DNA of 51,618 nucleotides from NCBI GenBank assembly GCA_937902985.1, contig CALFNG010000529.1, forward strand, positions 1-51,618, given 5' to 3'. The DNA comes from an uncultured Myxococcales bacterium (GTDB lineage: Bacteria > Myxococcota_A > Polyangia > Polyangiales > Polyangiaceae). Under the pieces are notes generated by a model, which saw only the letters and a list, made by a program, of their open reading frames with translations, ran no database searches and was not told the DNA's origin. The number at the start of each line of letters is the position of its first letter. Position 1 is the stretch's first letter. Positions 11,011 through 30,673 of this stretch are shown here, in pieces. The position numbers were made by a program, and so were the translations under genes.

Positions 11011-11838
11011 GTGAAGATTCTCGTCGCCGTCAAACGGGTCGCCGACCCTGACAACCTGAACAAGATCAAGCTCTCGGCCCAGGGCAAGGTCGACACGACC
11101 GGCCTCGAGCCCAAAGCGAGCCCGTACGATGACTACGCGCTCGAGACGGCCCTTCGCCTGACCGAGAACGGCACCAACACGAAGGCGCGCCTCGGCGAGG
11201 TCGTCGTCGTCACCTTCGGGCCGAAAGAAGCGGAGCAAATGCTCCGGGCGATGCTCGGAACGGGCGCCGACCGCGCCATCCGCATCGACGCGACCGACGA
11301 CGTGCTCGACGGAGACCTGGTCGCCCGCGGCTTGAAAGGCATCGTCGACAAGGAGAAGCCCGACCTCGTGCTCCTCGGCTACCAGCAGGCCGAGAGCGAG
11401 TCGAACGAGGTGGGCCAGATGCTCGCCGAGTACCTCGGTTGGCCTCAAGCGACGTTCGCGGGCCGCATCACCACCACGGACGACAAAGTTTTACTGGTCG
11501 AGCGTGAGACAGACGGTGCGACCGCGCACGTCAAGGTCACGCTGCCGGCGGTCGTGACGGTCATCGACAAGATCGTGAAGCCGAAGAGCGTTCAGTCGAA
11601 GCACACGCCGACTACGCACAACTACGCGGACGGCGTTCGGTTCGCGGCGCTGATGGCCATCATGGCCGCCAAGAAAAAGCCGCTCGCCGAGCAGAAGCTC
11701 GCCGACCTGGCGCCCGACGCGACCCTCAAGGTCCGCTACGCGAACGCCGAGTTGCCCCCCAAGCGCGCGGCCGGCGTGAAAGTGAAGGACGTGAAAGAGC
11801 TCGTGACGAAGCTCAAGACGGAAGCGAAGGTGGTGTGA
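11011..11838 (+). CDS. etfB: Electron transfer flavoprotein beta subunit
   Basis: 275 residues with the N-terminal signature [15 protein letters not shown] and the ETF-beta body ([47 protein letters not shown]). With EtfA it carries electrons from acyl-CoA and other dehydrogenases to the quinone pool via ETF:quinone oxidoreductase; EtfB holds AMP. The GTG start is supported by GGAGG seven bases upstream. The stop overlaps the etfA start (TGATG). In this window the natural partners would be fatty-acid or branched-chain acyl-CoA dehydrogenases, but none is encoded here. Confidence 0.96.
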
Positions 11839-12800: not shown

Positions 12801-12815
12801 GCACGACGCACTCGC

Positions 12816-12965
12816 CCGAGAGCGAGATTGGCCGCTGAGGCGCAGAGAACGCCGAGAAGAGGGCCGGGGCGCGGTCGTCGAAGAGACGTCGGCGCAGCCT
12901 GAGAGATCAAATTTCTTTGCTCTGCGCCCCCTGCGGCTCTGCGGCCAGTCTCGCTCTCTTCTCGG
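12816..12965. repeat. Dispersed intergenic repeat, inverted pair (locus A)
   Basis: Left arm at about 12816-12846 reads CCGAGAGCGAGAT, TGGCCGC, TGAGGCGCAGAG. The right arm at about 12930-12965 is its reverse complement with few changes, so the whole could fold into a long hairpin. The left arm starts 16 bases after the etfA stop. The same arm sequence recurs at three other intergenic sites in the window (16329, 32442, 45334). It fills most of the 224-bp gap before dnaX. REP-like or non-autonomous element origin is inference. Confidence 0.7.
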
Positions 12966-13024
12966 AGCGCTCAGGGCCCGGCTGACCCTCGCGTTCTGTG
13001 CGTGGGCGTTGTAAGCGTTGGGCA

Positions 13025-14968
13025 GTGAGCTACCTCGTTCTCGCTCGCAAATATCGGCCGCAGACCTTCGAGGATCTGGTCGGGCAAGACCACGTCGCGC
13101 GGACCCTCGCCAACGCGATCGCCACGGGGCGGATCGCGCACGCCTTCCTCTTCACGGGGGTCCGCGGCGTGGGCAAGACCACGAGCGCGCGCTTGCTCGC
13201 CAAGTGCCTCAACTGCGTCGGTCCGGATGGCAAGCTCACCGGTCCGACCGCAACGCCGTGCAACCAGTGTGCTCCATGCCGGGAGATCACCGCGGGGCAT
13301 GACCTCGACGTCCAGGAGATCGACGGCGCCAGCTACAACGGCGTCGACGAGGTGCGGCGGCTGCAAGAGGGCATGAGCTTTCGCCCCGCCCGCGACCGGT
13401 TCAAGATCTACATCGTCGACGAGGTGCACATGCTCTCGACGGCGGCGTGGAACGCCTTCCTGAAGACGCTCGAAGAGCCGCCGCCGCACGTGAAGTTCAT
13501 GTTTGCCACCACCGAGGTCCACAAGGTCCCCATCACGATCCTGTCGCGTTGCCAGCGCTACGACTTCAAGCTGATAGGCACGCAGCTGATCGCGCGGCGG
13601 CTCGAGCAAGTGCTCAAGCTGGAGAGCCTCCAGGCCGACGCCGACGCGGTGCAGGTGCTCGCGCGCGAAGCGGCTGGCTCGATGCGCGACGCGATGAGTT
13701 TGCTCGATCAGGTCATCGCCTTCAGCGGTCCCAGGGTCACGGGCAACGACGTCACCCGAGTGCTCGGCGTCGCCGACCGCAAGATCCTCCACGAGCTGAC
13801 CGGAGCGCTCGTGGCCGGTGACGCGGCGACGTGCCTCGGTGTGGTCGAGCGACTCGCCCAGCAAGGCTTCGACCTGCCTCACGTGGCCAAGGACGTCCTC
13901 GGTCACCTTCGCAACCTCGTCGTGGCCAAGGTGTGCGCCACGCCCGGACGCGAAGCGAGCGGCGCGCCAGCCGCGCCGTCGCTCCGCGAACTCCTCGATC
14001 TGGCCGACGAAGAGATCAGCGAGGTCGTCGACCTGGCGTCGCGCGCCGAGGCCGATGACCTATCGCGCCTCTTCCAGGGCTTCTCGCGGGCGTTCGACGA
14101 CATCGTACGGAGCGGTCAGCCGCGGACTGCGCTCGAGATGGCGCTCGTACGCCTCGCGCGAAGGCCGCCGCTGCTGGCGCTCGACGAGCTCCTCATGCGC
14201 GTGGGCGATCTCGAGCGACGTCTCGGGGGAGGCGCCCCGCCGCCCGGCCCGGCGCAACGGAGCGGAGGTGGGAGCGGGGGGCCCAGACCCGCGCAGCCCT
14301 CGGCGGGATCCGTCCACTCCCCCGCGAGCGGTGGCCGCACCCACGGCTCTCTCGCGCTCGTCGACCCGATCGTGGTCGCAACGGCCCCGCGCACCTCGGC
14401 GTCAGCGCCGACGTCCGCGCAGGCCCGCGCATCGGCGACCGCGGTGGCGCTCGCGCCCGGCCCCGCGCCCAAGCCCGCGCAAGCGCCGACGCCCGCGCTG
14501 GCGCCCGCGCACTTGCCCGCAGCTCCGGCCCCCGCCCCCGCCCCTCCCCCCCCCTCTCTCGCTCTTCTGGCCTGGCAGGGCATCATCACCGACCTGCGCC
14601 AGACGGAGGCTCACTTCGCCTCGTTTTACGAGCACGCCCTGGCTCTCGAAGTCACGCCGGAACGCGTCGTCGTGGGCTTCGCGCCCGGCGCCGCGTTTCA
14701 GGCCACGGGCGCCAGCGACCCGATGGCGCTCGAGGCCCTGACGAGGGCGGTCCGCGCGCACTTCGCGGGGCCTACGCAAGTCGTGCTCGAGCTATCGGCC
14801 ATTGCCCCTCCCGGCCTCCGTACCGTGGCTGCGCTCGACGCCGAGCGGCGCAGCGCCGACCTCGCCAGCGCGCGCGCGGCAGTGGCCGGCCACCCGGTCG
14901 TCCAGGAGGCGATTCGCCTCTTCGGCGCCCAGCTGCGCGACGTCAAGCTGCCCGGCGGCGACGGATAG
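13025..14968 (+). CDS. dnaX: DNA polymerase III subunits gamma/tau
   Basis: Clamp-loader ATPase, about 647 residues from the GTG at 13025 (the frame is open from 12998, but SYLVLARKYRPQTFEDLVGQ is the canonical N-terminus). Walker A GVRGVGKTT spans residues 45-53; zinc-binding cysteines are C64, C79, C82 and C85; Walker B and sensor region DEVHMLST ... LKTLEEPP; SRC motif follows in ILSRCQRYDF. The C-terminal part has a long Ala/Pro linker (about 410-520) before a folded tail, as in tau. I saw no A-rich slippery heptamer, so a gamma product by frameshift is not indicated. It heads the cluster dnaX-ybaB-recR-ridA with gaps of 9 to 15 bases. Confidence 0.95.
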   Translation: MSYLVLARKYRPQTFEDLVGQDHVARTLANAIATGRIAHAFLFTGVRGVGKTTSARLLAKCLNCVGPDGKLTGPTATPCNQCAPCREITAGHDLDVQEIDGASYNGVDEVRRLQEGMSFRPARDRFKIYIVDEVHMLSTAAWNAFLKTLEEPPPHVKFMFATTEVHKVPITILSRCQRYDFKLIGTQLIARRLEQVLKLESLQADADAVQVLAREAAGSMRDAMSLLDQVIAFSGPRVTGNDVTRVLGVADRKILHELTGALVAGDAATCLGVVERLAQQGFDLPHVAKDVLGHLRNLVVAKVCATPGREASGAPAAPSLRELLDLADEEISEVVDLASRAEADDLSRLFQGFSRAFDDIVRSGQPRTALEMALVRLARRPPLLALDELLMRVGDLERRLGGGAPPPGPAQRSGGGSGGPRPAQPSAGSVHSPASGGRTHGSLALVDPIVVATAPRTSASAPTSAQARASATAVALAPGPAPKPAQAPTPALAPAHLPAAPAPAPAPPPPSLALLAWQGIITDLRQTEAHFASFYEHALALEVTPERVVVGFAPGAAFQATGASDPMALEALTRAVRAHFAGPTQVVLELSAIAPPGLRTVAALDAERRSADLASARAAVAGHPVVQEAIRLFGAQLRDVKLPGGDG

Positions 14969-14982
14969 GCTAGAAAAGCGTC

Positions 14983-15303
14983 ATGCAATTCCGCGGCGGG
15001 ATGAACGAGCTGATGCGCCAGGCGGCGCGCATGCAGCGCCGGATCGATCAGGCGAAGAGCGAGCTCAAAGATCGCGAGATCGAGGTCGACGGCCTCGGTG
15101 GAAAAGTGAAGATCTTCGTCACGCTCGGGCGCAGCGTGAAGCAGATCAAGATCGATCCGGAGACGTTGAAGGCCGAGGACGTCGACCTCGTCCTCGACGG
15201 GGTTTGCGCGGCAATCAATCAGGCGATCGAGCAAGCCGACAAGCAGATGGAAGCGGAGATCGAGAAGGTCACGGGTGGCGTTAAGATCCCCGGGATGGTC
15301 TGA
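14983..15303 (+). CDS. YbaB/EbfC-family nucleoid-associated protein
   Basis: 106 residues, the usual size. The sequence starts MQFRGGMNELMRQAARMQRRI and continues EVDGLGGKVKIFVTLGRSVKQIKIDPE, the typical hydrophobic core of this dimeric DNA-binding family, which has a tweezer-like fold. It sits 14 bases after dnaX and 15 bases before recR, the arrangement seen across many bacteria. Its role is a general DNA-binding or nucleoid function; the exact job is not known in the family. Confidence 0.93.
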   Translation: MQFRGGMNELMRQAARMQRRIDQAKSELKDREIEVDGLGGKVKIFVTLGRSVKQIKIDPETLKAEDVDLVLDGVCAAINQAIEQADKQMEAEIEKVTGGVKIPGMV

Positions 15304-15318
15304 GCGATCATCGAGCCG

Positions 15319-15921
15319 GTGAGTCCCAAGATCCAGCGCCTCGTCAAGCTGCTGTCGCGTCTTCCGGGCGTCGGAGAGAAGACGGCGCAGCGCTACGTCC
15401 TCTGGCTGTTGACCGCCGACGACGCGCTCTCACGCTCCCTGGGAGACGAGCTCCGCACTTTGCGCGACGAGCTAGGCCCCTGCGAGCGCTGCGGGAACAT
15501 CGCGGAGATCCGCGAGGGCCATGCCGAGTGCGACGTGTGCCTCGACTCGAAGCGCGACGCGAAGGTGCTCTGCGTGGTCGCGCGTGTCCACGATCTCTTG
15601 GCCATCGAGCGCGCGGGGTCCATGCGCGGGCGCTACTTCGTCCTCGGGCGCCTCCTCTCACCGCTCGAGGGCATCGGCCCCGAAGATCTCCCCATGGCGC
15701 GCCTCGTCGAGCGCATCCGCGCCGATGGCGTGACCGAGGTCATCGTCGCGACGCCGCCCAGCGTCGACGGCGAAGCCACTGCGCTGCTCCTCAAGCGCGA
15801 GCTCGCGCCGGTCGGGGTCGCGATGACTCGCATCGCGAGCGGCGTGCCCCACGGCGGAGACCTCGAGTTCGCAGACCCGATCACGATGGGCCGTGCCCTT
15901 TCCGGTCGCCGCGCCTTGTAG
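15319..15921 (+). CDS. recR: Recombination mediator RecR
   Basis: 200 residues, GTG start. The helix-hairpin-helix LSRLPGVGEKTAQRYVLWLL is at the N-terminus. A four-cysteine zinc finger follows (C55, C58, C71, C74: CERCGNIAEIREGHAECDVC). Next is the Toprim domain beginning at about residue 84 (KVLCVVARVHDLLAIERAG), and the C-terminal IASGVPHGGDLEFADPITMGRAL. RecR acts with RecF/RecO to load RecA on SSB-coated single-stranded DNA. It is part of the dnaX cluster. Confidence 0.96.
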   Translation: MSPKIQRLVKLLSRLPGVGEKTAQRYVLWLLTADDALSRSLGDELRTLRDELGPCERCGNIAEIREGHAECDVCLDSKRDAKVLCVVARVHDLLAIERAGSMRGRYFVLGRLLSPLEGIGPEDLPMARLVERIRADGVTEVIVATPPSVDGEATALLLKRELAPVGVAMTRIASGVPHGGDLEFADPITMGRALSGRRAL

Positions 15922-15930
15922 ACTGCCCGC

Positions 15931-16314
15931 TTGACTGAACCCATCTCGACCAGCGACGCCCCCGGGGCCATCGGTCCGTATTCGCAGGCCGTACGGGCGG
16001 GCGGCCTCGTGTTCGTCAGCGGCCAGATCCCGCTCGATCCCGCCACCGGCCAGCTCGTCGCGGGCGACGTGACCGCCCAGACGGCCCGGGTGCTCGCGAA
16101 CCTCGGTGCCATTCTCGCGGCCGCCGGCTGCAGCTTCGCCGACGTCGTTCGCACCACGATTTACCTCGTAGACCTCGCCCACTTCGCGACCGTCAACGAG
16201 ATCTACGCTCGCAGCTTCGCCGCCCCCTACCCGGCCCGAGTCACCGTTCAGGTCTCTGCGCTCCCTCGAGGCGCTCTGGTCGAAATCGACGCCATCGCGG
16301 TCTCGAAGGCGTAG
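15931..16314 (+). CDS. RidA-family (YjgF) enamine/imine deaminase
   Basis: 127 residues, TTG start nine bases after recR. Typical segments are [61 protein letters not shown] and the C-terminal [21 protein letters not shown], which contains the arginine that binds the substrate carboxylate (cited in pieces, each shorter in the gene). RidA hydrolyses reactive 2-aminoacrylate and related enamines made by PLP enzymes. Last gene of the dnaX cluster; it converges on the acyltransferase gene across an inverted-repeat element. Confidence 0.92.
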
Positions 16315-16328
16315 CGACAGCGGCCCGT

Positions 16329-16470
16329 GAGAGGGAGATTGGCCGCGGAGCCGCAGAGTGCGCAAAGATGAGAGGGGTGTCGGCGCTCGACTCGTCACTC
16401 AGCACAGAGCGCGCAAACCCCGTCCCTCTGCGCCCTCTGCGCCTCTGCGGCCCATCTCGCTCTCCTCTCA
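16329..16470. repeat. Dispersed intergenic repeat, inverted pair (locus B)
   Basis: Left arm at 16329-16360 (GAGAGGGAGAT, TGGCCGC, GGAGCCGCAGAG) starts 14 bases after the ridA stop. The right arm at about 16421-16470 is the reverse complement of the same consensus and abuts the stop codon of the convergent DUF374 gene. Thus each arm stands directly 3' of a gene, in the same orientation relative to that gene. The pair can form a long stem and may serve both genes as a transcript end. Confidence 0.7.
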
Positions 16471-17133
16471 AGAGGACGCGTTGAGCCGCGCGAGGGAGCG
16501 CTCGAGTTCAGCGCGCGCGTCGAGGACGATCGCCGGGTCGACGGGGTCGCCGAGGGTGACGTCGACGCGGCTGAAGGGCCACGCGATCGCGAATCGGTCC
16601 CACGCGCGATCGAGCACGATGCCCCTTCGGACCGCTCCCGTCATCGGAACGAGCACGGCCTTCGCCGCACGGGCGGCGACGACAGCGCCGCCCTTGACCA
16701 CCCCGCGCGGGCCGCGTGGGCCGTCGACCGCAAAAGCAGCGTCGGCTCCTTCGCGGCGCATCGCGCGAACGACAGCCGCAAGGCCGCGCGCGCCACCGCG
16801 CGAGCTCGACCCGCGGACGACGCGGAACCCCTGGACGGCGAGCGCGCGCGCCTGCATCGAGCCGTCGTGTGAGAGGCTCACGAGCACCACCGTGCGCCGC
16901 CTCCGTTGCCACGCGAGGAGCGGCCATTGCGTCCCATGCCAGAAGGCCAGCACCCAGGGTCGGTCAGCCACGGCCTCGAGCCCGGGGTGCGCCACGACGC
17001 GCACCCGCAGCGTCGCCAGCCACAGGCGAGCGACCAACCCGAGGATCACGCCCGCCAGCGTCACCAGCAGCGAATGACCAAGGGGACGCAGGCGCTCGCG
17101 CGCCCCTCCCGCCCGTGTCACCGCTGCCGTCAC
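16468..17133 (-). CDS. DUF374-type lysophospholipid acyltransferase family protein
   Basis: 221 residues. It shows the DUF374/LPLAT pattern: one N-terminal hydrophobic segment (LLVTLAGVILGLVARLWLA), WVLAFWHGTQWPLL, LVSLSHDGSMQA, RGSSSRGGARGL and AVDGPRGPRGVVKGG. Members are inner-membrane acyltransferases linked to lipid A or phospholipid acylation; the substrate here is unknown. The GTG start at 17133 overlaps the stop of the giant TPR gene (GTGA), so translation is coupled to it. This is the only firm genomic partner of that giant protein. Confidence 0.85.
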   Translation of the reverse strand: MTAAVTRAGGARERLRPLGHSLLVTLAGVILGLVARLWLATLRVRVVAHPGLEAVADRPWVLAFWHGTQWPLLAWQRRRRTVVLVSLSHDGSMQARALAVQGFRVVRGSSSRGGARGLAAVVRAMRREGADAAFAVDGPRGPRGVVKGGAVVAARAAKAVLVPMTGAVRRGIVLDRAWDRFAIAWPFSRVDVTLGDPVDPAIVLDARAELERSLARLNASS

Positions 17134-20100
17134 CCCTTGAGCTCGGACAGCTTCGTCCGCGCGAGGGCCAGCGAAGGCTCGTTCTCGATCGCCCGCTCGA
17201 ACATTTGCACGGCCTTCGCCTTGTCGCCCTGCTTCGCGCTGATCTCGCCGAGGTAATAGAACACCTCGCCCTTCGAGATCCCGACGTTCGGTTCGAGTCG
17301 CTGCAGGAGCAGCGCGCGGAACGTCTTCTGCGCGCGATCGAGGTCGTTGGTCTCGAACGCCAGAACGCCCAGGTCTTTGAGGACCGTGACCGAGCCGGGA
17401 TCGATCTTGAAGGCCATGTCGAGCTGAATCAACGCTACGTCTTTATCGCCGAGCTGAGCGAGCGCGCTCGCGAGCTTGTGGTGGTACAGCGCCAGCTCCT
17501 TCGTGCGGCGGCTGCCGAACGAAGCGATGACCCGCTCGAGCACCTGCGCGGCCTCGCGCCCGCGCTGCGCTGCGTTGTAGGCGTCGCACAGGGCCAGGAG
17601 CAATTCGCGGTCGTGCGGGATGAGCTGCGCCGCGCGCTCGAGGACGGGGATCGCGTCGGCCGGCGAGCGCCGGTGCACGATGTGGATCTCGGCGGCCGCC
17701 TTCAAGAGCTTCACCTGTTCGAGGATCGGAGCGGGGACGCTCGGCGGTGGCGGTACGGAGCCGCCCGGCGGGATGCTCGCGAGGGTACGCCGCATGGGCG
17801 GCAGCCCTTCGGGCGCGATGCTCGCCATGCTCCGTCGAGGCGGGGGGAGCTCGGGCGCCACCTTGAGATCGGGGTTGGCGGCCGCGATGAGATCGGCGTC
17901 GCCCACGAGCAGGTCAGCGAGCTCGGCCCATTTCTCCGCGCGCTCCCAGCGTTGCCGGAGCATCGCGCGCAGCCCTGCGTTGTTGGGCTCGAACTTGAGC
18001 CCGCGCTGCAATGCCTCTTCGACGCCGTCCGCGTCGCCGTTGTTCTCGCGCGCCTCGGCGAGCTTGAGCGCCCAGAGCACGCCTTCGGCGGGGCTCGCGA
18101 GGTCGACGAGCTTCGCCAGCGCCGTCGACGCCCGCTCCCAATCCTCGCGCTGCTGGGCGATGCGGGCGACCGCCTCGAGCGCCCCGCGGTGGTCCGGATC
18201 ACGAACGAGCACGTCTTCGTACGCCTCCTGCGCGGCGGTCGCGTCGCCGAGGCGTCCCTCGTGCACCTCGCCGAGCCTCACTAGGAGGGCCAGCTCGGAG
18301 GCGATGTCGCTTCGGTCGCGCGCGGCGTCGAGCTGCGCCTTGAGGAGCTCGGCGAGCTCGGCATCGCGGCCCATCGCCTCGTAGAGCTGCGACAGGGTGA
18401 GCACGGCCTCCGCCTGCGTCGGATCCTCGTCGAGGATCGCGCGCAGCGTCTCGATGGCGTCGTCTTGCGATTTGAAGCGATCGCGCTGGAGCTTCGCCAG
18501 CTCGATCCGCAGGCTCGCTCGTTCGGTTTGCGCCGTGGCAACGTCGATCAGGCGCATGAGCAGCCGGGCGAGATCGCGATCGCGACCGGCTTGACTGTAG
18601 AGCGAGCGCAACGCCGTCGCCGCGGGCGCGTCCGTGGGCTCCGAGTCGAGTATCTCTTCGTAGAGCGACGTGGCTCGGGTGGCTTCCTGCAGCTTCTCGA
18701 CGAGGACCCGCGCCGCCTCGTGCCTCAGCCTGAGCGCAGCTTCGCCGTCGGAGCCGATCTCCGCGCGGAAGAGCAGGAGCTTCACCACCTCGGCGTCGTC
18801 GCCCGCGGCGGCCCGGAGCTTCGTGAGCTCTTCGAGCGCCCAGAGGTCGGCCTCGTCTTCGGCGATGAGATCGCGCAGCGTCGCTTCGGCGAGGTCGCGG
18901 TCCCCGACGGGCCCTTCGGCGAGCCCCTTCGCGTCGCGGAGGAGCTCGCGCTTCGTCGCGATGTCGGTCTCCAGGCGCGCGCGCGTTCGCAGGGTGTGCA
19001 CGAGCTCGCGCTCGCGCCCGGGCTCGCGTCGCAGATCCTCGAGCGCGCGAAGGACGTCGAGGTTCTCGGGATCGATCGACAGAGCCCGGGCGTACGCGTC
19101 TTCGGCGCGTCGCTTGTCGGCGAGCTTGTCTCGCCTCCAGCCGGCGAGGCGGATAAAGAGCTCCATCCGCGTCACGGCCGGCAAGTCCTGCTCGGCGTCG
19201 AGCGCTCCCGAGAGGGTCTCGGCCGCCTCTCGCCACCCGTCGTTCACGGCGGCCAGCCGTTCGAGCTCGGTGAGCGAGTCCTCTTCGGACGGGTCTTCGG
19301 CGACCGCTGCCTCGACGGCTCGCTGGGCACGCGGCCGATCCCCGACCATCTCTTCGAGTACCCGCGCGAGATCGAGCCGCGCGCGGATGCGGTCGCCCGC
19401 GGACTGCGCACGCGCGACGCGACGCTCGTAGAGGTTCGCGAGCTCCTCGGTGCGACCGAGCATGCGATGAACGAACTCGAGGGCTTCGAAGGCGTCCTCG
19501 AAGAGCGCGCCGTCGTCGAGGAGACCCTCGAGCGCCTCGCGGCTCGCGGTGTGATCGGGGACCCGCTCGAGCGCCTGCCGCAAGGTCGACAGCCCCTGTG
19601 CGCGCTCCCCGAACTCGTGAATCTGCAGCACCGCGAGACGGTTCAAGAGGTCCGCCTGCACCCTCGCGTCCGCCTCGACGGCGATGCGCCTCTCGAGGAC
19701 GTCGGCCAGACCGCGAGTGTCACGAAGCCTGCCGTGAAGCCGATCGAGTGCCCGAAGCACGGCGGGATCGTCCCCCATTCGCTCCACGGCTGCCGTGTAG
19801 GCCTTCGCGCCCCGGGGCGCGTCATCGAGCTTTTCTTCGCTGACCCGCCCCAGGCGCACGAACAGGTCCGCAGCGACGTTCGCGTCGAAGATCCCGACCG
19901 CACGCTCTTGCAGCGCGTCGGCGTATCGCCTCCACCCGTCGGCGCCGATTCGCTCGGCGAGCCGCTCGATCTCTCCGTGAAGTGATGCGTCTTGCGGCTC
20001 TTCGGACAGCGCGCGAATGAGCGCGGACTCGGCTTGCTCGGCGTCGCCAAGGGCCGTCTCGGACACCTCGGCGAGCGCGCGCAGCGTGCGCGCCCGGTCC

Positions 20101-23100
20101 AGAGCTTCGGTCTGCGAGCGCAGCCGGAGCTCGAGAGCGGACGCCAGCTCCTGGTGCCGGCCAGCCGCGCGGAGCACGGGCTCGAGCGCGTCGGCCGCGT
20201 CGCCGCGGAGCTCGTCGCGAGACTCGCCGATGCTCCGAATGGCCGCGACCGACTCTTCGTCGAACCCGCCGTCGAGGACCCCTCGATATGCTTCGAGGGC
20301 CGACTGAGCGTCTTGCAGCTGCACCGCATAGAGCGACGCGATTCGCTTTTGCAGCGCGCGTCGCGCCCCGTCGTCGGGGGCGGCGCCGGCCTGGAGCTTG
20401 AGATTGTCGAGAAGCTCGGGCCAGAGACGCTCGTGCGTGTAAAGGGAGTCCAGCCGCCGCAGGACCTCGTCGTGACCTTCGGCCACCCCCTGGACGCCGA
20501 GGGCCTGCACGAGGCACTCGATCGCCTCGCGATGGTCCGACAGGTCGGTCACGTACCGGCTGGACGCGGAGACGAGCAGCTTGAACTTGAGCTCGTCGTC
20601 GCCCTCGCCGCAAAGCTCGACGCGCCGGCGGCAAAGGTCGACGAGGCGTGAGGCGTCGCTCCGGTGTTCGTAGAGGTCGATGAGGTAGTCGATCGTCAGC
20701 GTGCTTTCGGGCTCGAGTTCGAGCGCCCGCTCGTAAGCCTCGATGGCTCCGAGCGCGTCGTCGAGCATGTCGCGCCGGGCCTCGCCGATGCGCCGCCACG
20801 TGGATGCGCGGGTCTCGTCGTCCGGGACGAGATCGACCTTCTTCACGAGCACCCGCACGAGGGCGCCCCAGTCGCTCAGCAGCGTCGCCAGCGCATCCAT
20901 CTCTTCGAGCGGCTCGAACTCGGTCTCGTCGAGCGAGAAGAGGCGCTCCCACGCCAGGAGGGCGCGGCGCGGATCGTCGCGGCGCTTGTCGTGCAGCTGG
21001 GCGAGCGCCGAGAGCAGCTCGCGCTTGGTCAGGCCGTCGGTCTTTTCGATGCCGGTCTCGTACGCGGCGGCGAGGTCGTCCCAGCGCTTCGTGGTCGCGG
21101 CGAGACGATCGAGCTCGCCGCGGGCGTCACCGTCTTCGGGATCGAGGATCCACGCTTGCCGGATGGCCTCGAACGCGCGGCGGCGATCGCCCCCGCGCTT
21201 CTCCCAGAGGTTCGCGTTCTCGCGCAGGATCGTGACCCGCTCCGGGACCTCGGCAGCAAGGAGCAGCCGCTGCTCGTTGATCGAGATGAGATGACGCCAG
21301 TCGTCGGCCCGCTCGTAGATCGGGCGCAAGATGTCGACCACGCGCGCCTTGTGCTCCGGCGCGTGGAGCAGCTCTTCGAGCGTCGCCACCGCCTCGGCGC
21401 CGGGGCCATCGCCCGAAGCGGTCACGAGTTCGACGACCGTCTGGAGCTCGTCGATGCCGGTCTGCGGCTCCCCCAGCTTCTGGACCAGGAGCTTCGCGAG
21501 CTGCATGCGGTGCGCGGCTTCGTCTTCGGGGAGCGCGCTCTGCTCGGCGCGGCGCCGGGTCAGCTCGGCCAGGTCGCGCCAGCGCTCGCCGCGTGCGTAG
21601 AGCCGGGACAGCGCTTCGAGCGCGTGCATGTCCCCTTCGTCGACGTCGAGCGCGGCGCGGTAGGTCGCGACGGCGCCGGCGTCGTCGGAGAGCTCGGTCT
21701 CTTGCAACAGCGCGATCGTGTGAAGAGCCCCGAGGCGCTGCGCCGGGTCGTGCTTGTAATCGAGCGCGTCGCGATAGAGCTTCACGCGGTCAGCCGGCCG
21801 GCCCGACTCATGCAGGAGGCGATCGATGGCCGCGAAGCTCCCGCCGGACGTCTCGGGAGCGAAAGCGTACGCGCGCCGGTAAAACTGGAGGGACCGCTCG
21901 ACGTCCTTCTGGGCCTCGAAGAGCTCACCGGTGCGCTTCGCCAGACGCGCCGTCGCGAGCTCGTCGGTGGCGATCTTCTCGAGCTCGCCCGCGTAGATCT
22001 CTGCGAGCCGCGCTTCGGAGTTGGCGACCCGGGCCAGGCGTTCGAGCTCCGCCCAGGTGCCTTCGTCGGTCGCGTCTTCGGCGAGGAGCAACGCCGTCGT
22101 CTCCAGCGCCGCGCGATAGTCCTCGGCCTGCTCTTCGTGGAGCTTCGACAGCCGTCGCAAGAGGAGCCGCCGCTCGTCGGGGTCCTGGCTGACGTCGAGG
22201 CGGGCCTCGATCGTCGCCATGACGCGGCGCCAGTCGAGACGCGCGAGGTACACCGGCTCGAGCATCGCCGCGGCCCGCGCCGCATGCTCGCGCTGCCCCA
22301 TGAGCGCTTCGAGCGAGGCGACCGACTGCGGGTGCCTCGGGTCAATCGAGAGTGCCGCCGCATACTCGTCGAACGCTCGGTCCACCTCGCCGGTTCGCTT
22401 CTCGAGGAGCTTGCCGAGCGCGTGGTGAAGGGCGGCCCGGCGCTCGTTCGACGTGCCGGGCGCGACGATCTGGCGCTCGTAGAGGCCGATGAGGTCCTCC
22501 CAGCGTTCGGCTTGCGCGTAGAGGCGTTCGAGCGCGTCGATCGCCTTCGCGTCGAGAGACATCTCGACGATCTGTTCGTAGACGGAGATCGCCGCCCGGG
22601 TGTCGCCGAGCTTCTCGTCGCAGAGCTGCGCTTGCTTGAAGAGCAGCTGCCTCCGCTCCCCGTCGGTGTCGGACGCCTCGGCTCGCCGTTTGACGATATC
22701 GAGCAGCGCCGGATGGTCGCCCGTTTCTTCGTAGAGCGCTTCGAGCGCGACGAGCGCGCGCTTGTCGTCGCCGCGTACGTCGAGCGCCCTAGCGTAGTAC
22801 TCCTTCGCGAGCGCCGTGTTGCCGAGGGGAGCGTGCGCGATCTGGGCGATGCGCAACGTCACTTCGAGCTGCAGATCGCCGTCGACGATCTCACCGACCG
22901 CGGCGCGGAGGAGCTCGACGAGGTCCTCGTGCTTTCCCGTGGTGGCCGTGAGACGCTCGGCCCTGTCGATCCAGAGCCGGAGCTCCGGATCGGCCACGGC
23001 CTCGCGCAGCCCTCGCGCCGCGTACGAGAAGGCGCGCGTGGGGTCCCTCAGCGGGCCCTCGGCTACGCGCACGGCTTGGGCGATCGTCGCCAGCTTCGAC

Positions 23101-26100
23101 GCCGTCGAATCGGCGTGCTCGGCCTCGATCTCGAGGACTCTGAGGAGCTTCTCGTGGAGGCCGTCGGACTCGTAGAGCGGGTGCAGGATCTCGGCCGCCT
23201 CGAGGCGCGCGCCGTCGTCGTCGAGCATCGCCTCCAGGGCGCTACGGCACCGCTCGTGAGACGGATCGATCCCGAGCGCCTGACGGTACGCTTCCATCGC
23301 CCCGGCCACGTCGCCGAGCTTGACTTGCCGGACCTCGCCCAGGCGCGCGAGGATGTGCAGCTTGTCGCCGGGCGTCTCGGCCAGCGCGAGGTCCGCCTCG
23401 AGGGTGTCGGCGAGGTCCTGCCAGCGATCGGCGAGCTGGTAGAGCATCGCGAGCGCCGCGAGCGACGTGCGATCCGCACCGAAGTCCTCGATCACCGCGC
23501 GATAGGCCGTGATGGCTCCGTCGATCTCGGTCAGGCGCTCGGTGAGCGTCCGCGCGATGCGCACCATGAAGGTCCGGCGCGTCTCGCGATCGTCGGTCTG
23601 TCGCTCCCGGACGCGCAGTATCCAGATGAGCTCCGTCCAGCTCTGCGTGCTCTCGTACAGGCCATCCAGTGCCGAGAGCGCGTGCGGGTCGCTCGGGTCG
23701 TCTTCGAGCCTGGCCCGCCACGCGTCGATGGCGCCGCGCGAATCGTCGAGCACGTTCTCGCAGAGCTCGCCCAGCCGCCCGAGCAGCTCGCGGCGCGCGT
23801 CGGGGCTCTCTTCGAGCTTCACCTCAATGCGCAGGATGTCGCGGAGCTTCTGGCTGTCGCCGCGGACGTAGATGCGCTCGAGCGCGCGGCACGGGGGCAG
23901 CGCGATCGATGCGTCGTCCGGAGCGAGCTGCAAGACCTGCCGGTAGACAGCCTCGGCGCGGGCGGCGTCGTTCAGCTCGCTCTCGCAGAGTCGCGCGACA
24001 TCCATGAGGATGTCGGAGCGTGGCACCGGAGCCGTCGCGGCGGCCGCCGTCGTGGTGAGCACGCCGGCCGCGCGCTCGTGGGCGCCGAGCCGTCGCGCGA
24101 TCTCGAGCATGCGCTCGCGAGCGCGAGCGTCCTCGGGATCGAGGGGCAGCAGGCGCGCGAACGCCTCGAGGGCGCCAGCGTCGTCGCGCAGGCGTTCGTC
24201 GCGGAGGTCGGCCACGCGGCGGAGCAGGTCGCGCCGCTCGTCGGCGTGCGTCGCGAACTCGAGGTGGATCTCGAGCACGCGAACGAGCTCGGGCACTTCG
24301 TCGCGGGTGGCGTACACGGCCTCGAGGATGATCGCCGCACGCGCGCGCAGCTCCGGTACGTCGAGGATCTTCTCGACGAGATGGCGGGCTTGCGTCGCGC
24401 TCGGGCGCTCTCGCAGCACCTGCTCGAGGTGCGCGAGCGCGCCCGAAGCGTCGCCGAGCTGGGTGAAGAGGAGCGTTCCGAGGCGCTGGTCGAGATCGAG
24501 GCGCTCGTCGCCCACGGCGCCCTGGCGACGGCGCTCGAGTAGCTGCGCGAGGCGGTCCCAGCGGTGCTCGGCCGCGTAGAGGCTATCGAGAGAACGCACG
24601 GCCTGCTCGTGAACCGGATCGAGCTCGAGGATCCTCTCGTAGTAGGCGATCGCCCTCGGGCGGTCCCCGGTGATCTCTTCGGCGACGAGAGCCACTTCGG
24701 CGAGGAGCTCCGCTCTCCGCACGGGATCCGGGTTCGCCTCGACGACACGCTCGTAGAGGCCGCCCAGCTCGTTCCACTCTTCGCGCGTGGTCAGGATCTG
24801 TTTGAGACGCTGGAAGGCGCGCTCGTTGCCCGGCTGCAGCGCGAGCATCCGCTCGAAGTACGGGGTGGCGCGCTCGACGTCGCCGAGCTTCTCGTCGAAC
24901 AGCGTCGATGCGCGCTCGGACAGATCGAGCTCGACGCGTCCGGGCAGTCCGGTCGGTCCCGTCGGCGCCACGGCCGCCACGAGCCCGCCGGCGAAGTCCT
25001 GGGCCCTGCCCGTCTCGGCGGAGAGCGCGGACAGTCGATCCCACAGCGGCAGGTCCGTCGGGAACTCGCCCGCCGCGCGCGCGATGACGTCGAACGCGCC
25101 GTTCGCGTCGCTCAGCTTAGCCGCATGCACGTCAGCGAGGCGCCCGTAGAGCGTCAAGCGGTCGTCCCGCGCGGCCGTGGTCGCGATCAGCACTTCGAGC
25201 ACGTCAGCCTGACGCTGCGCCGCGCCCGTCTCGCCGTAGGCGCGCTCGAGGATCGCCGCCGCTCGCGCGCGCGTCTCGCCGATGACGAGGAGCTGCTCGA
25301 CCACCTCGACCGCGCGCGGGTCGTTGGGCGAGAGCTCGAGCGCCCGTTCGCTCGCGCGGAGCGCGTCGACATACTTGTGCAGAGGCTCGACGTAGAGCTT
25401 CGCGAGCTCGATCTCCCGAGCCGCCCGGTCCATGCCCTCGCGCTGGTCGCGATCGAGCGCGATGACTTCGGCCGCGCCGTTGGCGTCGCCCTGCGCTCGC
25501 AAGAGTCGCGCGAGGGAGCGGAGCGCGCTCCCGTGGTGAGGCACGAGCTCGAGCATCCGCCGGTAGAGGCGAACCGCGTTGTCGGGCGCGCCGAACGCCT
25601 CTTCTTCGAGGAGCGCCCACTCGCCGAGCAAGTCGAGCTTGAGGGGGGTGTTCGTGCGTCGGATCCGGAGGTCGAAGAGCCAGCGCAAGTCGTCGCGGCG
25701 ATCGGCCTCGCGCAGAACGCGATCGAGCGTCTGCACCGCGAGATCGTCGCTCTCGTCTTCTTCGACGAGCAGCCGATAGATCTGCACGGCCTCGTCGACG
25801 CGGCCCATGTCGCGCGCATAGACCTCGGCGAGCTTCGAGCGCAGGGCGCGCTGCGCTTCGCGCCGGCCGATCTCGTTGCCCTCGGCCTCTCTCTTCTTCT
25901 TGCTCTTCTTTCCCCCGGACCGCGTGCCATCGAGCGCCTCGAGCCGGGCGACGAGAGCTTCCACGAACCCCGGCCACTCCTCCGCGGTGCGCGTTGCCGC
26001 CTCGAAGGTCGCGAGGGCGCCTTCGCGGCCGGGCGCGAGCTCGTACGCCTTGCGCGCCCAGGCGAACGCCGCCGCCCGATCCTGCAGGCGCAGACCCGAG

Positions 26101-28598
26101 ACCTGCACGAGCTTGTCGAGGAGCCTGAGCTTGTCCTCGGCGTCGCGAGCGTCGCCCAGGAGGATCTCGTAGAGCGCCGGCAATCGCGCCCACTTCTCGT
26201 CTTTCTCGTAGAGAGGTGCCAGCGCGGCGGCCGCGCGCGCATCGTCGGGGCGCACGCTGAGTACGCGCTCGTACGACCGGAAGGCCCGGTCCGGAGCGTT
26301 CAGCTTTTCGGCGTAGACGGTCGCGCTCCGGAAGCTGAGATCGATCTTCAGCTCGGGCTCGGTCGCCTTGTCGGCAGCGCCCGAGAGGACCTCGACCAGC
26401 CCCTCCCAGTCCTTGCTCTCCGCATAGAGCTCCGTCAGACCATCGTAGTCGCGAATCGCGACGTAGCTGTCGCGCAGCACGCGCAGGGCCTTGGCGTGCC
26501 CCGGCTGCAACGTCAGCACGCGGCGCCAGGCGCTCATCGCCTTGGTGGGATCGCGCAGGCGATCGGAGTAAATCCCCCCGAGCTTGAGGAGGATCACGAG
26601 GCGCGCGGCGGCGTCGGTCGCGAGCGCCACGCGCCGCTCGAGCACGTCGGCGACCGTTGCGAAGTCCTTGTCGCGCTCGGCCTGCTTCTCGAGCGCGTCG
26701 AGCGCCGCGGCCGACGAGGGCTCTTCGTCGAGCACGCGCCGGTGCCAGGCCACCGCCTGGGCGCCCATATCGAGGCGCTCCGCGGCGAGCTTCGCCATTT
26801 CCATCCAGATCTCGCGCCGCTCGGCGCCCTCAGAGAGGGCGTCGGCTTCCTGCCCGAGGAGCGCGTAGAGCGGCTTGTAGGCCCGACGCTTCGCGTAGAG
26901 CTCCTTCAGGCGCTCGACGGCTTCGCGATCGGCCGGATCGACGGCGTGTAGCTTCTCGAAGGCCTCGACCGCGTTCTGTACGTTGGAAAATTGATCGAGC
27001 CAGCGACGCGCGATCATCCTCCACAGCTCGGCCTTCACCCCCGGCTCTACCTCGAGGTCGGCCTGGCGTCCCTGCATCGTCAGGAGATCGCGCCACCGCT
27101 GGAGGGACTCGTAGACCCGCGCCAGCTCGCGCACGCTCGGGAGATCGGTCGGATCGAGCTGCACGATCTGCGTGAGCACGGTCACGAGCGCCGAGTCGCT
27201 CTTCACTTCGTCGCGGTAGACGACGGCGATGCCGCGCAGCACCGGCAGGCGCCCGGGCGCGTCGTCGGCCGCGAGCTTGTCGAGCTCCTGGCGCAGCAAG
27301 TCGGTGAGGGCGTTCCAGCTCGCCGTCTGCCGGTAGAGGCGCTTCAGCGCGTCGCGCGCGTCCTTGTTGCCGGGATCCTGGCGCAACACCGCGCGCCACT
27401 GCTCGATCGCCTTCTGGGCGTTCGCGCCCTCTTCGGCCAGCTTCGCGATCTCGGCGACGATCGCTCCCCGCTCGACCCCGTCGGGCGTCGCTCGTTGCGC
27501 GTCGCCGAGGATGGTCGCCAGGCGCGTGTTCTCGCCGCGCGTCGAGCACCAGTCGCGGAAGAACGAGAGCATCGCCGCGTTGGCCGGGTCGAGCTTGCGG
27601 AGCCGCTCGAACCACGCCTCGGCGGCGTCGGGCCGGTTGCGCTTGCGCCAGTGGATCATCGCGACCTGGAGCGCCGCGCCCGACTCTTCGTCTTTGCCCC
27701 GCAGGGCGCCGGCCGAGAGTTGACCCTCGTAGAGGGCCACGAGGTGGTCCCACGTCTCGCGCGACGTGAAATAGTCGGAGAGAAAGCCCGCGGCCTCGGC
27801 GTTGCTCGGCGCCACGTCGAGGACGCGCTCGTAAGCGGCCGCGGCGCGGTCCGCCGACTTCAACTTCTTGGCGAAGGTCCGCGCGAGCCGCAGCCAGCCG
27901 GCGATCTTCTCGTCTTTCTGCGTGGCCTCGCTCGCGAATCGCTCGAGCGCCTCGGCCACGTCGTCCCACCGCCCGTCGTCGCGCAGCATGCGCTCGAGGA
28001 GCATCTCGGCTCGCCGGTTCTTCGGGTCGAGCTGCAACGCCTCGCGCAGGAGCGCGACGATGCGATCGATGAGCTCTTTCTCGCCGTCGATGCGCCCGTA
28101 GCGGAACACCACTTCGGCGGCGCTGACGAGTAGCGAGCTCCGGAACGCAGCGTCGCCTGCGCCCTGCGCTTCCTGCACGTAGCGCTCGGAAAGCTCGCGC
28201 CATTTTGCGCGCTTCGCGTTGGTGCGGTCGAGGGCGTCGGCCGCGTCGTTGTCGCCCGGCGTGTTCGCGAGGAGCCGCTCGTAGGCCGAACGCGCCGCCG
28301 CGTCGTCCATCAGCTCTTCGTCGAGGACGCGCGCAAGCTCGGCGAGGAGCGCGTGCTCGCGCGCCGTGCCGCCCCCGCGAGAAGCCGCGACGAGCTCGAT
28401 CTCGAGCAGCTTCTGAACCGCCTCGTACTCGCGCCGCCCTTCATAGACGCGGCGAGCGGACTCGAGGAGCTTTGCGAGCTCGTCTGTGCCCATACCCGGT
28501 TCGTCTTCGACCTCCATGCGGAGCGTCTGCCACGTAGGGGCGCTGTCCGGATCGTCTTGCAGCAGTCCGAGGGCGCTCTTGATCGTCTTCGCGCTCAT
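17130..28598 (-). CDS. Giant TPR-repeat protein, 3,822 residues
   Basis: One uninterrupted frame of 11.5 kb. The ATG at 28598 has AGGTG six bases upstream. No signal peptide or membrane helix is visible, so it should be cytoplasmic. Nearly the whole length is degenerate TPR-like helix pairs in units I estimate at about 105 residues (roughly 35 units), each with the pattern LA-x-hydrophobic-x-D-x-L-x-D-x-x-x-A-x-x-A-Y-x-x-x-L-x-x-D-P, then an A-L-x-x-L-Y stretch, W-x-x-L and L-x-x-R/E. Breaks in the pattern are a Lys-rich insertion near residues 890-905 (GGKKSKKKREAEG) and a Pro-rich linker near 3575-3625 (PELPPPRRSMASIAPEG), followed by more canonical TPRs to the end. No catalytic domain was recognised. 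It would form a very long superhelix suited to a scaffold. The next gene is an acyltransferase (4-base overlap); plsC diverges upstream. Confidence 0.92.
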   Translation of the reverse strand: MSAKTIKSALGLLQDDPDSAPTWQTLRMEVEDEPGMGTDELAKLLESARRVYEGRREYEAVQKLLEIELVAASRGGGTAREHALLAELARVLDEELMDDAAARSAYERLLANTPGDNDAADALDRTNAKRAKWRELSERYVQEAQGAGDAAFRSSLLVSAAEVVFRYGRIDGEKELIDRIVALLREALQLDPKNRRAEMLLERMLRDDGRWDDVAEALERFASEATQKDEKIAGWLRLARTFAKKLKSADRAAAAYERVLDVAPSNAEAAGFLSDYFTSRETWDHLVALYEGQLSAGALRGKDEESGAALQVAMIHWRKRNRPDAAEAWFERLRKLDPANAAMLSFFRDWCSTRGENTRLATILGDAQRATPDGVERGAIVAEIAKLAEEGANAQKAIEQWRAVLRQDPGNKDARDALKRLYRQTASWNALTDLLRQELDKLAADDAPGRLPVLRGIAVVYRDEVKSDSALVTVLTQIVQLDPTDLPSVRELARVYESLQRWRDLLTMQGRQADLEVEPGVKAELWRMIARRWLDQFSNVQNAVEAFEKLHAVDPADREAVERLKELYAKRRAYKPLYALLGQEADALSEGAERREIWMEMAKLAAERLDMGAQAVAWHRRVLDEEPSSAAALDALEKQAERDKDFATVADVLERRVALATDAAARLVILLKLGGIYSDRLRDPTKAMSAWRRVLTLQPGHAKALRVLRDSYVAIRDYDGLTELYAESKDWEGLVEVLSGAADKATEPELKIDLSFRSATVYAEKLNAPDRAFRSYERVLSVRPDDARAAAALAPLYEKDEKWARLPALYEILLGDARDAEDKLRLLDKLVQVSGLRLQDRAAAFAWARKAYELAPGREGALATFEAATRTAEEWPGFVEALVARLEALDGTRSGGKKSKKKREAEGNEIGRREAQRALRSKLAEVYARDMGRVDEAVQIYRLLVEEDESDDLAVQTLDRVLREADRRDDLRWLFDLRIRRTNTPLKLDLLGEWALLEEEAFGAPDNAVRLYRRMLELVPHHGSALRSLARLLRAQGDANGAAEVIALDRDQREGMDRAAREIELAKLYVEPLHKYVDALRASERALELSPNDPRAVEVVEQLLVIGETRARAAAILERAYGETGAAQRQADVLEVLIATTAARDDRLTLYGRLADVHAAKLSDANGAFDVIARAAGEFPTDLPLWDRLSALSAETGRAQDFAGGLVAAVAPTGPTGLPGRVELDLSERASTLFDEKLGDVERATPYFERMLALQPGNERAFQRLKQILTTREEWNELGGLYERVVEANPDPVRRAELLAEVALVAEEITGDRPRAIAYYERILELDPVHEQAVRSLDSLYAAEHRWDRLAQLLERRRQGAVGDERLDLDQRLGTLLFTQLGDASGALAHLEQVLRERPSATQARHLVEKILDVPELRARAAIILEAVYATRDEVPELVRVLEIHLEFATHADERRDLLRRVADLRDERLRDDAGALEAFARLLPLDPEDARARERMLEIARRLGAHERAAGVLTTTAAAATAPVPRSDILMDVARLCESELNDAARAEAVYRQVLQLAPDDASIALPPCRALERIYVRGDSQKLRDILRIEVKLEESPDARRELLGRLGELCENVLDDSRGAIDAWRARLEDDPSDPHALSALDGLYESTQSWTELIWILRVRERQTDDRETRRTFMVRIARTLTERLTEIDGAITAYRAVIEDFGADRTSLAALAMLYQLADRWQDLADTLEADLALAETPGDKLHILARLGEVRQVKLGDVAGAMEAYRQALGIDPSHERCRSALEAMLDDDGARLEAAEILHPLYESDGLHEKLLRVLEIEAEHADSTASKLATIAQAVRVAEGPLRDPTRAFSYAARGLREAVADPELRLWIDRAERLTATTGKHEDLVELLRAAVGEIVDGDLQLEVTLRIAQIAHAPLGNTALAKEYYARALDVRGDDKRALVALEALYEETGDHPALLDIVKRRAEASDTDGERRQLLFKQAQLCDEKLGDTRAAISVYEQIVEMSLDAKAIDALERLYAQAERWEDLIGLYERQIVAPGTSNERRAALHHALGKLLEKRTGEVDRAFDEYAAALSIDPRHPQSVASLEALMGQREHAARAAAMLEPVYLARLDWRRVMATIEARLDVSQDPDERRLLLRRLSKLHEEQAEDYRAALETTALLLAEDATDEGTWAELERLARVANSEARLAEIYAGELEKIATDELATARLAKRTGELFEAQKDVERSLQFYRRAYAFAPETSGGSFAAIDRLLHESGRPADRVKLYRDALDYKHDPAQRLGALHTIALLQETELSDDAGAVATYRAALDVDEGDMHALEALSRLYARGERWRDLAELTRRRAEQSALPEDEAAHRMQLAKLLVQKLGEPQTGIDELQTVVELVTASGDGPGAEAVATLEELLHAPEHKARVVDILRPIYERADDWRHLISINEQRLLLAAEVPERVTILRENANLWEKRGGDRRRAFEAIRQAWILDPEDGDARGELDRLAATTKRWDDLAAAYETGIEKTDGLTKRELLSALAQLHDKRRDDPRRALLAWERLFSLDETEFEPLEEMDALATLLSDWGALVRVLVKKVDLVPDDETRASTWRRIGEARRDMLDDALGAIEAYERALELEPESTLTIDYLIDLYEHRSDASRLVDLCRRRVELCGEGDDELKFKLLVSASSRYVTDLSDHREAIECLVQALGVQGVAEGHDEVLRRLDSLYTHERLWPELLDNLKLQAGAAPDDGARRALQKRIASLYAVQLQDAQSALEAYRGVLDGGFDEESVAAIRSIGESRDELRGDAADALEPVLRAAGRHQELASALELRLRSQTEALDRARTLRALAEVSETALGDAEQAESALIRALSEEPQDASLHGEIERLAERIGADGWRRYADALQERAVGIFDANVAADLFVRLGRVSEEKLDDAPRGAKAYTAAVERMGDDPAVLRALDRLHGRLRDTRGLADVLERRIAVEADARVQADLLNRLAVLQIHEFGERAQGLSTLRQALERVPDHTASREALEGLLDDGALFEDAFEALEFVHRMLGRTEELANLYERRVARAQSAGDRIRARLDLARVLEEMVGDRPRAQRAVEAAVAEDPSEEDSLTELERLAAVNDGWREAAETLSGALDAEQDLPAVTRMELFIRLAGWRRDKLADKRRAEDAYARALSIDPENLDVLRALEDLRREPGRERELVHTLRTRARLETDIATKRELLRDAKGLAEGPVGDRDLAEATLRDLIAEDEADLWALEELTKLRAAAGDDAEVVKLLLFRAEIGSDGEAALRLRHEAARVLVEKLQEATRATSLYEEILDSEPTDAPAATALRSLYSQAGRDRDLARLLMRLIDVATAQTERASLRIELAKLQRDRFKSQDDAIETLRAILDEDPTQAEAVLTLSQLYEAMGRDAELAELLKAQLDAARDRSDIASELALLVRLGEVHEGRLGDATAAQEAYEDVLVRDPDHRGALEAVARIAQQREDWERASTALAKLVDLASPAEGVLWALKLAEARENNGDADGVEEALQRGLKFEPNNAGLRAMLRQRWERAEKWAELADLLVGDADLIAAANPDLKVAPELPPPRRSMASIAPEGLPPMRRTLASIPPGGSVPPPPSVPAPILEQVKLLKAAAEIHIVHRRSPADAIPVLERAAQLIPHDRELLLALCDAYNAAQRGREAAQVLERVIASFGSRRTKELALYHHKLASALAQLGDKDVALIQLDMAFKIDPGSVTVLKDLGVLAFETNDLDRAQKTFRALLLQRLEPNVGISKGEVFYYLGEISAKQGDKAKAVQMFERAIENEPSLALARTKLSELKG

Positions 28599-28907: not shown

Positions 28908-29618
28908 ATGAGCGATTCGGTCGTACTGTCGCTAGAGAACATCTACGAGACTCTGGCGATCTCGTGGCCGACGGTCATCGACGCCCTCCGCGGCCGGCTG
29001 ACCAAGCAAATCTGCGACGATCGCCTCGAGGGGTGGTCGAAAGAGGTCGTCGACAATGCCCGGATCACCGTGACGGTCTCGGGCCGGCACCACCTCGGGC
29101 GCGGCGAGACGTACCTGGTCATGAGCAACCATCAGTCGTTGTATGACATCCCCGTACTCTTCTCTGTCGTCGGTCCGAACATCCGGATGGTGACCAAGAA
29201 GGAGCTCTTTCGCGTGCCGGTCTTCGGGGGAGCGCTGGCGGCGGCCGGATTCATCTCGATCGATCGAAGCGATCGCGACGCCGCCATCCGCAGCCTCGAC
29301 GCCGCACGCGCGCTCCTGGCCGGCGGAACGCACGTGTGGATCGCGCCCGAGGGCACGCGCAGCCGGACGGGCGAGCTCCTCCCCTTCAAGAAGGGTGCGT
29401 TCTACCTGGCGTTCGAGGCCGGTCTCCCCATCTTGCCGGTCACGCTCAAAGGCACGCGCGACGTGCTCGCCGCCAAAGGCGTCGCGTCGCATGCCGGTGC
29501 CGACGTCCGGGTGACCATCCACGAGAAGATCGATCCGCGACCCTACACCGACCGCGGTAAGGACGGCCGCATCGGGCTGATGAACGAGGTGCGCCGCGTC
29601 ATCGAGAGCGCCCTTTGA
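28908..29618 (+). CDS. 1-acyl-sn-glycerol-3-phosphate acyltransferase family protein (PlsC-like)
   Basis: 237 residues. The ATG at 28908 has GCGAGG seven bases upstream; the frame is open further upstream, but that stretch runs into the divergent gene. Catalytic motif I is NHQSLYD (NHx4D); the glycerol-phosphate motif is APEGTRS; LPILPVTLKGT follows. It would acylate lysophosphatidic acid to phosphatidic acid at the inner membrane face. The stop overlaps the start of the diacylglycerol-kinase-family gene by four bases (TTGA). The pairing points to phosphatidic-acid supply or recycling. Confidence 0.9.
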   Translation: MSDSVVLSLENIYETLAISWPTVIDALRGRLTKQICDDRLEGWSKEVVDNARITVTVSGRHHLGRGETYLVMSNHQSLYDIPVLFSVVGPNIRMVTKKELFRVPVFGGALAAAGFISIDRSDRDAAIRSLDAARALLAGGTHVWIAPEGTRSRTGELLPFKKGAFYLAFEAGLPILPVTLKGTRDVLAAKGVASHAGADVRVTIHEKIDPRPYTDRGKDGRIGLMNEVRRVIESAL

Positions 29619-30673
29619 CGGGCGCGGCGACCGCAAATCCGGCGAACCCGCCGACCTGGCCGGCGCCGAGCATGCCCGGAGCCGGCGCGGGCCTCGCGGT
29701 CCTGGTCAACGCCAACGCGAAGCGAGGGGGCCGGCGCGTGGCCGTGCAGATCGCGCGCGTGCTCCCGGGCGCGAGCGTGCGGCTGACCAAGAGCCCCCAG
29801 GAGATCGGCGCCTGGCTCCGCGTCCTCTCGCCAATTCGTGCCGTGCTCGCTGCCGGGGGCGACGGCTCGGCCGTGGCGCTGGTCAACGCGCTCTCCCTCC
29901 TGGCGGGCGAAGGCGAGTCGCTGCCGACAATGGGCATCTTGCCCCTCGGGACCGGAAACGGATGGGCTCACGCGCTCGGGGCGCCGAAGCTCTATCAGTG
30001 CCTCGAGCTGCTCGCCAGAACACCGGGTCCCTTGCCGACGCGCCGCTGCAGCTTGATCGAAGTCGAAGGGACCCTCGCTCATTTCGCGGGCTCCGGCTGG
30101 GACGCAATGATCCTCGACGACTACAAACGACAGCTCGAGGCGAGCAAGGGCCCCAGCCGGCACTTCACCAAGAGCGTCTACGGGTACCTCTCGGCCACGC
30201 TCTTGCGAACCGCGCCGAAGGTCGCGATCTTCGGCAACCCCCACGTCGTCATCGAGAACCTCGGCAGCGAGATCTACGCCATCGACAACGCGGGCCGGCC
30301 TCGGCCGCTCGAAGGCGTGGGACCCGGCGCGGTGATCTACGACGGCCCCGTCGGCACGGCGTCTGTGGGAACATGTCCCGAGTTTGGATACCGCTTCAAG
30401 GCGTTTCCCTTCGCGGAGCGCATGCCGGGCTTCATGAGCGTGCGCGCCTACTCGCGGGGCGCCCTCAGCGCCGTGACCACGATTCCCCGCCTCTGGAATG
30501 GTGAGCATCCGCTTCGGGGCATGCACGACTGGCTCGCCACCCATGTCCGGATGACGTTTTCGCGGCCCGTACCCTTGCAGATCGGCGGCGACGCGCACGG
30601 CATGCGGCGGACCATCGAGTACCGCGCGGCGAGCCGAGGCATTGGCATGGTCGACTGGCGACGAATGGGATAG
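29615..30673 (+). CDS. Diacylglycerol kinase catalytic-domain (YegS/LCB5-like) protein
   Basis: 352 residues, TTG start overlapping the previous stop. The diacylglycerol/sphingosine kinase nucleotide motif is AAGGDGS, followed by GILPLGTGNGWA and, near the C-terminus, PLQIGGDAHG. These match the DAGK_cat family, which phosphorylates a lipid diol such as diacylglycerol using ATP. An N-terminal Pro/Ala stretch precedes the LVNANAKRGG start of the fold. Together with the PlsC-like gene it forms a two-gene lipid-phosphate unit. The exact lipid substrate cannot be told from sequence. Confidence 0.88.
   Translation: MTGAATANPANPPTWPAPSMPGAGAGLAVLVNANAKRGGRRVAVQIARVLPGASVRLTKSPQEIGAWLRVLSPIRAVLAAGGDGSAVALVNALSLLAGEGESLPTMGILPLGTGNGWAHALGAPKLYQCLELLARTPGPLPTRRCSLIEVEGTLAHFAGSGWDAMILDDYKRQLEASKGPSRHFTKSVYGYLSATLLRTAPKVAIFGNPHVVIENLGSEIYAIDNAGRPRPLEGVGPGAVIYDGPVGTASVGTCPEFGYRFKAFPFAERMPGFMSVRAYSRGALSAVTTIPRLWNGEHPLRGMHDWLATHVRMTFSRPVPLQIGGDAHGMRRTIEYRAASRGIGMVDWRRMG

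Follow-up and report, generated by a model that had tools for sequence, protein, structure and literature searches.

A giant all-TPR protein of Myxococcota, very probably an ancient paralogue of the gliding protein GltI/AgmK, as a possible tether for envelope-lipid machinery

The window analysed here is a stretch of 51,618 nucleotides from an uncultured Myxococcales bacterium (contig CALFNG010000529.1), and the largest feature considered in it is a single open reading frame of 11.5 kb on the minus strand (17130..28598, read from an ATG start at 28598), which encodes a protein of 3,822 residues. GC content by codon position in this frame is 0.77/0.45/0.89, and comparison with a same-genus orthologue gives a dN of 0.20 and a dS of 0.73, from which we can conclude that the original prediction rightly took the frame for a real gene and that the gene is under purifying selection. 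The Kyte-Doolittle mean over 19-residue windows reaches a maximum of only 1.46, so that neither a membrane helix nor, in line with the earlier claim, a signal peptide is evident. The protein is probably located in the cytoplasm. On the basis of the open frame itself, Pfam TPR matches, orthologues, and alignment and profiles against GltI, we place it in what we call family A, a family of giant all-TPR proteins that appears to be paralogous to GltI.

The TGA of the giant gene overlaps the GTG start of the next gene on the same strand (16468..17133, minus strand) in the sequence GTGA, just as was first described, and this neighbour encodes a DUF374 acyltransferase (PF04028, 79.9-83.1 bits against a cut-off of 26.8). 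The DUF374 family is that of LpxJ, which in several bacteria acts as a late acyltransferase of lipid A (PMC6148475). Diverging upstream of the giant are a PlsC-type acyltransferase (28908..29618, plus strand, ATG start by inspection; PF01553 and TIGR00530 over cut-off) and a lipid kinase of the diacylglycerol kinase type (29615..30673, plus strand; PF00781), both of which had been recognised from the bare sequence. The window furthermore holds genes for ETF beta and alpha, dnaX, ybaB, recR and RidA on the plus strand (11011-16314), and several members of the order keep the recR-dnaX block close to the giant, with RidA also staying nearby in this order.

That the protein consists of TPR repeats and lacks an enzyme domain is borne out by the family models, since TPR_8 matches at 130.6 bits against a gathering score of 25.7, seven more TPR models are likewise above theirs, and the other Pfam matches are few, faint or due to TPR-like repeats from other proteins. 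In NCBIfam the giant belongs to no family above cut-off, the TPR match to PrsT (TIGR02917) reaching 225 bits and thus staying under the family cut-off of 312. A known large-family domain of the NACHT/AAA or polyketide kind, which the original prediction had itself named as the finding that would speak against it, was looked for in Pfam and NCBIfam, and neither library gave any such catalytic domain (NACHT/AAA, PKS/NRPS). The repeat unit, however, is not the one first proposed (about 35 units of about 105 residues). When the profile of 29 orthologues is autocorrelated, the peak falls at 72 residues, 8.6 s.d. over the mean of all offsets, which rejects a unit of 105, and an HMM of the 72-residue unit gives 52 matches at E<1e-5 that span residues 81-3821 with spacings of mostly 70-76; at a looser cut-off there are 56 matches compared to 1-7 in shuffled copies. 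Since some of the matches are split halves, the count comes to about 50, and the giant is thus predicted to hold about 50 units of 72 residues with two helical hairpins each, or about 100 hairpins in all. By the geometry of TPR arrays, about 100 hairpins would span tens of nanometres.

AlphaFold models of two pieces, part of the check that had been suggested, contain helices only: residues 1-1000 give a pLDDT of 84.7 with 53 helices and zero strands, residues 3000-3822 a pLDDT of 88.0 with 43 helices and zero strands, and both pieces form the array of antiparallel helix pairs that defines TPR proteins. Their top matches among solved structures are the eukaryotic proteins Ski3, IFT-A subunits and Ctr9, all long TPR solenoid scaffolds, but TM-scores of 0.1-0.2 and identities of 10-16% indicate likeness in fold and not kinship. 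Together with the TPR-only models, these helical pieces support the earlier reading of a superhelix with neither signal peptide nor catalytic domain, and the giant is almost certainly a purely structural TPR superhelix scaffold, probably a cytoplasmic one.

Conservation along the giant has its maxima near both ends, at residues 300-580 (26859..27701, minus strand), which form the best-conserved N-terminal stretch, and at residues 3690-3810. The latter lie within a conserved, family-specific C-terminal TPR block with the signature FRALLLQ (residues 3640-3822; 17133..17681, minus strand). The low-confidence stretches of the models coincide with two disordered regions, both of which had been noted at first reading near residues 900 and 3600, namely a Lys-rich insertion (about residues 893-905, with low confidence at 892-904; 25884..25922, minus strand) and a Pro-rich hinge (residues 3581-3618; 17745..17858, minus strand). 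Since most orthologues are without them, the insertion and the hinge appear to be clade-specific linkers.

The notion that a protein of such length is rare does not hold, and a size of about 3.6-4.0 kaa is in fact normal for this order-wide family. The genomes of 38/38 relatives give a match to residues 1-1000 of the giant, mostly within open frames 3,700-4,000 residues long, although some of these matches (e.g. in G010 and G024) are weak and may be to paralogues. Including that of the window, 29 full sequences of 3,735-3,973 aa were obtained, the other 28 sharing 26-71% identity with that of the window along nearly all of its length, and 19 more loci, which come from other orders and classes and encode 3,547-4,015 aa, all favour the family A profile over that of GltI (19/19), which brings the full-length orthologues to 47 (about 3,550-4,015 aa). 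A contig scan with a single sequence recovered only four close relatives, and the searches termed A1 and A2, run at loose thresholds, also catch other giant TPR proteins, so that counts outside the class of the window are approximate. The C-terminal block is present in 117/284 Myxococcota genomes (E<=1e-20). An 11.5-kb gene that is kept at a near-constant 3.6-4.0 kaa or so over much of a phylum must do something that is costly to lose. Antisense open frames of 3,352-4,174 aa opposite several of the giants (L042, L045, L046, L053, L055) were rejected as artefacts of high-GC coding DNA by their codon-position GC.

Most of the relatives encode a second giant with about 25-33% identity to the window protein, and this second giant follows genes that match gliding_GltE, CglF and gliding_GltG in the right order and size, if below the NCBIfam equivalog cut-offs. 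In Myxococcus xanthus GltI/AgmK (MXAN_4863) lies downstream of gltE-gltF-gltG (PMC3169522), and owing to these neighbours the second giant can be regarded as the true GltI of these genomes. GltI/AgmK resembles the window protein in size (about 3.8-4.2 kaa), in having no signal peptide and in its TPR array of 72-73-residue units, and the two are collinear over about 3,000 residues, aligning on a single diagonal (residues 481-3461, 25% identity, 634 bits, the next register scoring 444). It follows from this one-diagonal alignment that the whole gene was duplicated and not merely some of its repeats. GltI alone lies downstream of gltE-F-G, shows a variable linker around residues 370-480 and closes at its C-terminus with a non-TPR tail, about 340 residues long and without a Pfam match (seen in 7 GltI sequences), whereas family A finishes with a conserved TPR block of its own and the repeat units of the window protein reach residue 3821, leaving no GltI-type tail. 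The window holds no glt gene and none was recognised beside the family A loci that were read, the glt genes adjoining the paralogue instead. Profiles of family A and GltI part the two families cleanly, the tree places them in separate clades, and genome G058 carries both a family A giant and a GltI (L084 and L090). The possibility that the giant is GltI itself was consequently rejected, since the tailed GltI is a second giant in its own genome (G000:C527), and the glt context of the GltI counterparts in relatives, the tree and the profiles rule it out as well. We therefore hold the giant to be, very probably, an ancient paralogue and sister of GltI/AgmK, and to call it an undescribed system, as the original prediction did, is too strong for a phylum-wide paralogue of a described gliding protein. 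Group A genes, gltI included, are known to occur sometimes in several copies (PMC3169522), but of the sister giants only GltI has been studied so far, and we found nothing in the literature on a GltI paralogue of such kind.

Every genome with the C-terminal block (117/117) also has a protein with the GltI-type tail, while among the 284 Myxococcota genomes 30 have the tail only and 137 have neither, counts that have to be read with the fact that this tail also sits on shorter proteins. GltG was found in 271/284 genomes, and family A thus follows GltI and not the whole machinery. Common descent may account for this co-occurrence rather than a working link.

The suggestion that the giant might be a scaffold for lipid or envelope assembly rested on its neighbours, and these were followed through the relatives. 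A DUF374 gene is found in 18/38 of them, in 13 beside the giant, in two elsewhere (G030, G037) and in three at contig ends where its place is undecidable; a partial DUF374 gene lies at a contig edge in G001. The predicted adjacency thus stands in the clade of the window and in both f17 genomes but is not constant, and an obligate partnership was rejected, since about 19/38 relatives have the giant without any DUF374 gene. Other lipid genes adjoin the giant in other clades. Psd, a phosphatidylserine decarboxylase, is found beside it in 10 genomes (eight of f37, one of f46 and one of f35) and is followed by a PgsA-like CDP-alcohol phosphatidyltransferase in G159, an LPG-synthase-like membrane protein (LPG_synthase_TM) lies upstream in six (four of f55, one of f46 and one of f35), and MlaE is near in two MAGs. 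The lipid theme accordingly recurs with different genes in separate clades, although it fails in several, no lipid gene being recognised beside the giant in f27, f16, f14, f29, f44 and others. A rough binomial estimate puts the chance of three or more independent lipid neighbours at 0.004-0.03, but this is crude, as it assumes 60 lipid genes among 5,500 and uses clades picked post hoc, and its support for a lipid link is suggestive only. A class IV aminotransferase, which follows the giant either directly or past DUF374 in many members of the window's order and in f37 and f47 lies upstream of it in divergent orientation, is in the window's order at least as frequent a neighbour as the lipid genes.

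In the reading that we favour, a whole gene of the GltI/AgmK type was duplicated early in Myxococcota, after which the duplicate moved away from the gliding cluster, unless it was GltI that moved away from the duplicate. The giant may then act as a very long tether, whose conserved end surfaces (residues 300-580 and 3690-3810) would bind partners, with the repeats between them serving as spacer and spring. Because lipid genes repeatedly adjoin the giant, the likeliest cargo would be envelope-lipid machinery of the inner membrane, such as lipid A or phospholipid enzymes, but this choice is tentative and somewhat doubtful, and the reading as a whole, a GltI-derived TPR tether for envelope-lipid machinery, likewise falls somewhat short of being probable. 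Its widest form, a phylum-wide scaffold tens of nanometres long that shares an ancestor with GltI and gathers lipid A and phospholipid enzymes at the inner membrane, we consider distinctly unlikely.

The full-length homology to GltI invites the notion that the giant is instead a second, tail-less gliding platform, a GltI-like cytoplasmic scaffold which cooperates with the Glt/Agl focal-adhesion complex or regulates it, while the gene of the giant lies elsewhere. This would agree with the tail protein present in all 117 genomes with the C-terminal block and with the fact that GltG alone, in 124 further genomes, does not bring this block, but the explanation is not very likely, as no glt gene was recognised beside the giant at the loci read, the giant is without the GltI tail and shared descent can explain the co-occurrence with GltI. 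Any likeness to GltI in the way the giant works would extend no further than GltI's own nature as a TPR platform. It has also to be considered that the giant could be a TPR scaffold or co-chaperone of general function in the cytoplasm, whose clients belong neither to lipid metabolism nor to gliding, with the neighbours of the giant merely reflecting an old gene order (the dnaX-recR region, the aminotransferase IV). The complete change of neighbours between orders and classes and the persistence of RecR, DnaX and RidA within the order of the window speak for this, yet it remains unlikely in view of the diverse lipid genes that turn up again in separate clades, on one flank of the giant or the other, and of the two end regions that are conserved above the remainder of the array. 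That the giant is a large enzyme of several domains, or a protein of the STAND/NACHT type, whose catalytic part escaped detection is exceedingly improbable, since the repeat HMM tiles residues 81-3821 at mostly 70-76 spacing and leaves no room for a catalytic domain; with TPR-type models only in Pfam and NCBIfam, this possibility is refuted as far as sequence goes.

If the widest form of the lipid reading, the phylum-wide scaffold, is right, sister giant proteins would organise motility and envelope-lipid supply in Myxococcota. Should the lipid link hold, the giant would provide a bacterial example of membrane-lipid synthesis organised by a giant scaffold. The comparison also bears on the role of GltI itself, in which the shared array would be the scaffold and the tail the gliding-specific part. 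The tail (L060:12077-13093, L090:15358-16368 and others of alignment A5) belongs to no Pfam family and occurs in 147/284 Myxococcota genomes, where the proteins that carry it range from about 500 to 4,200 aa. Among them are Ser/Thr kinase-TPR-tail proteins, about 1.8 kaa long, represented in the window's own genome by a protein of 1,865 aa (L092:5124-10721, G000:C234); tailed proteins of such a length occur in many relatives. The kinase proteins have related TPR units and are matched by both profiles, but unlike the giant they carry a kinase domain in front and the GltI-type tail behind. In the same genome a stretch of 487 bp (L091:1383-1859, G000:C172) with 68% DNA likeness to the C-terminal block of the giant, set in a short open frame of 415 aa, may be a small gene in its own right, a remnant or contamination. 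A third family of giant TPR proteins (2.6-4.1 kaa), found at L094:4976-12721 and L095 (9893-19999, minus strand), scores 1151 against 343 bits and 1780 against 498 bits with the profile of the window's family and that of GltI, respectively, and constitutes a further paralogue.
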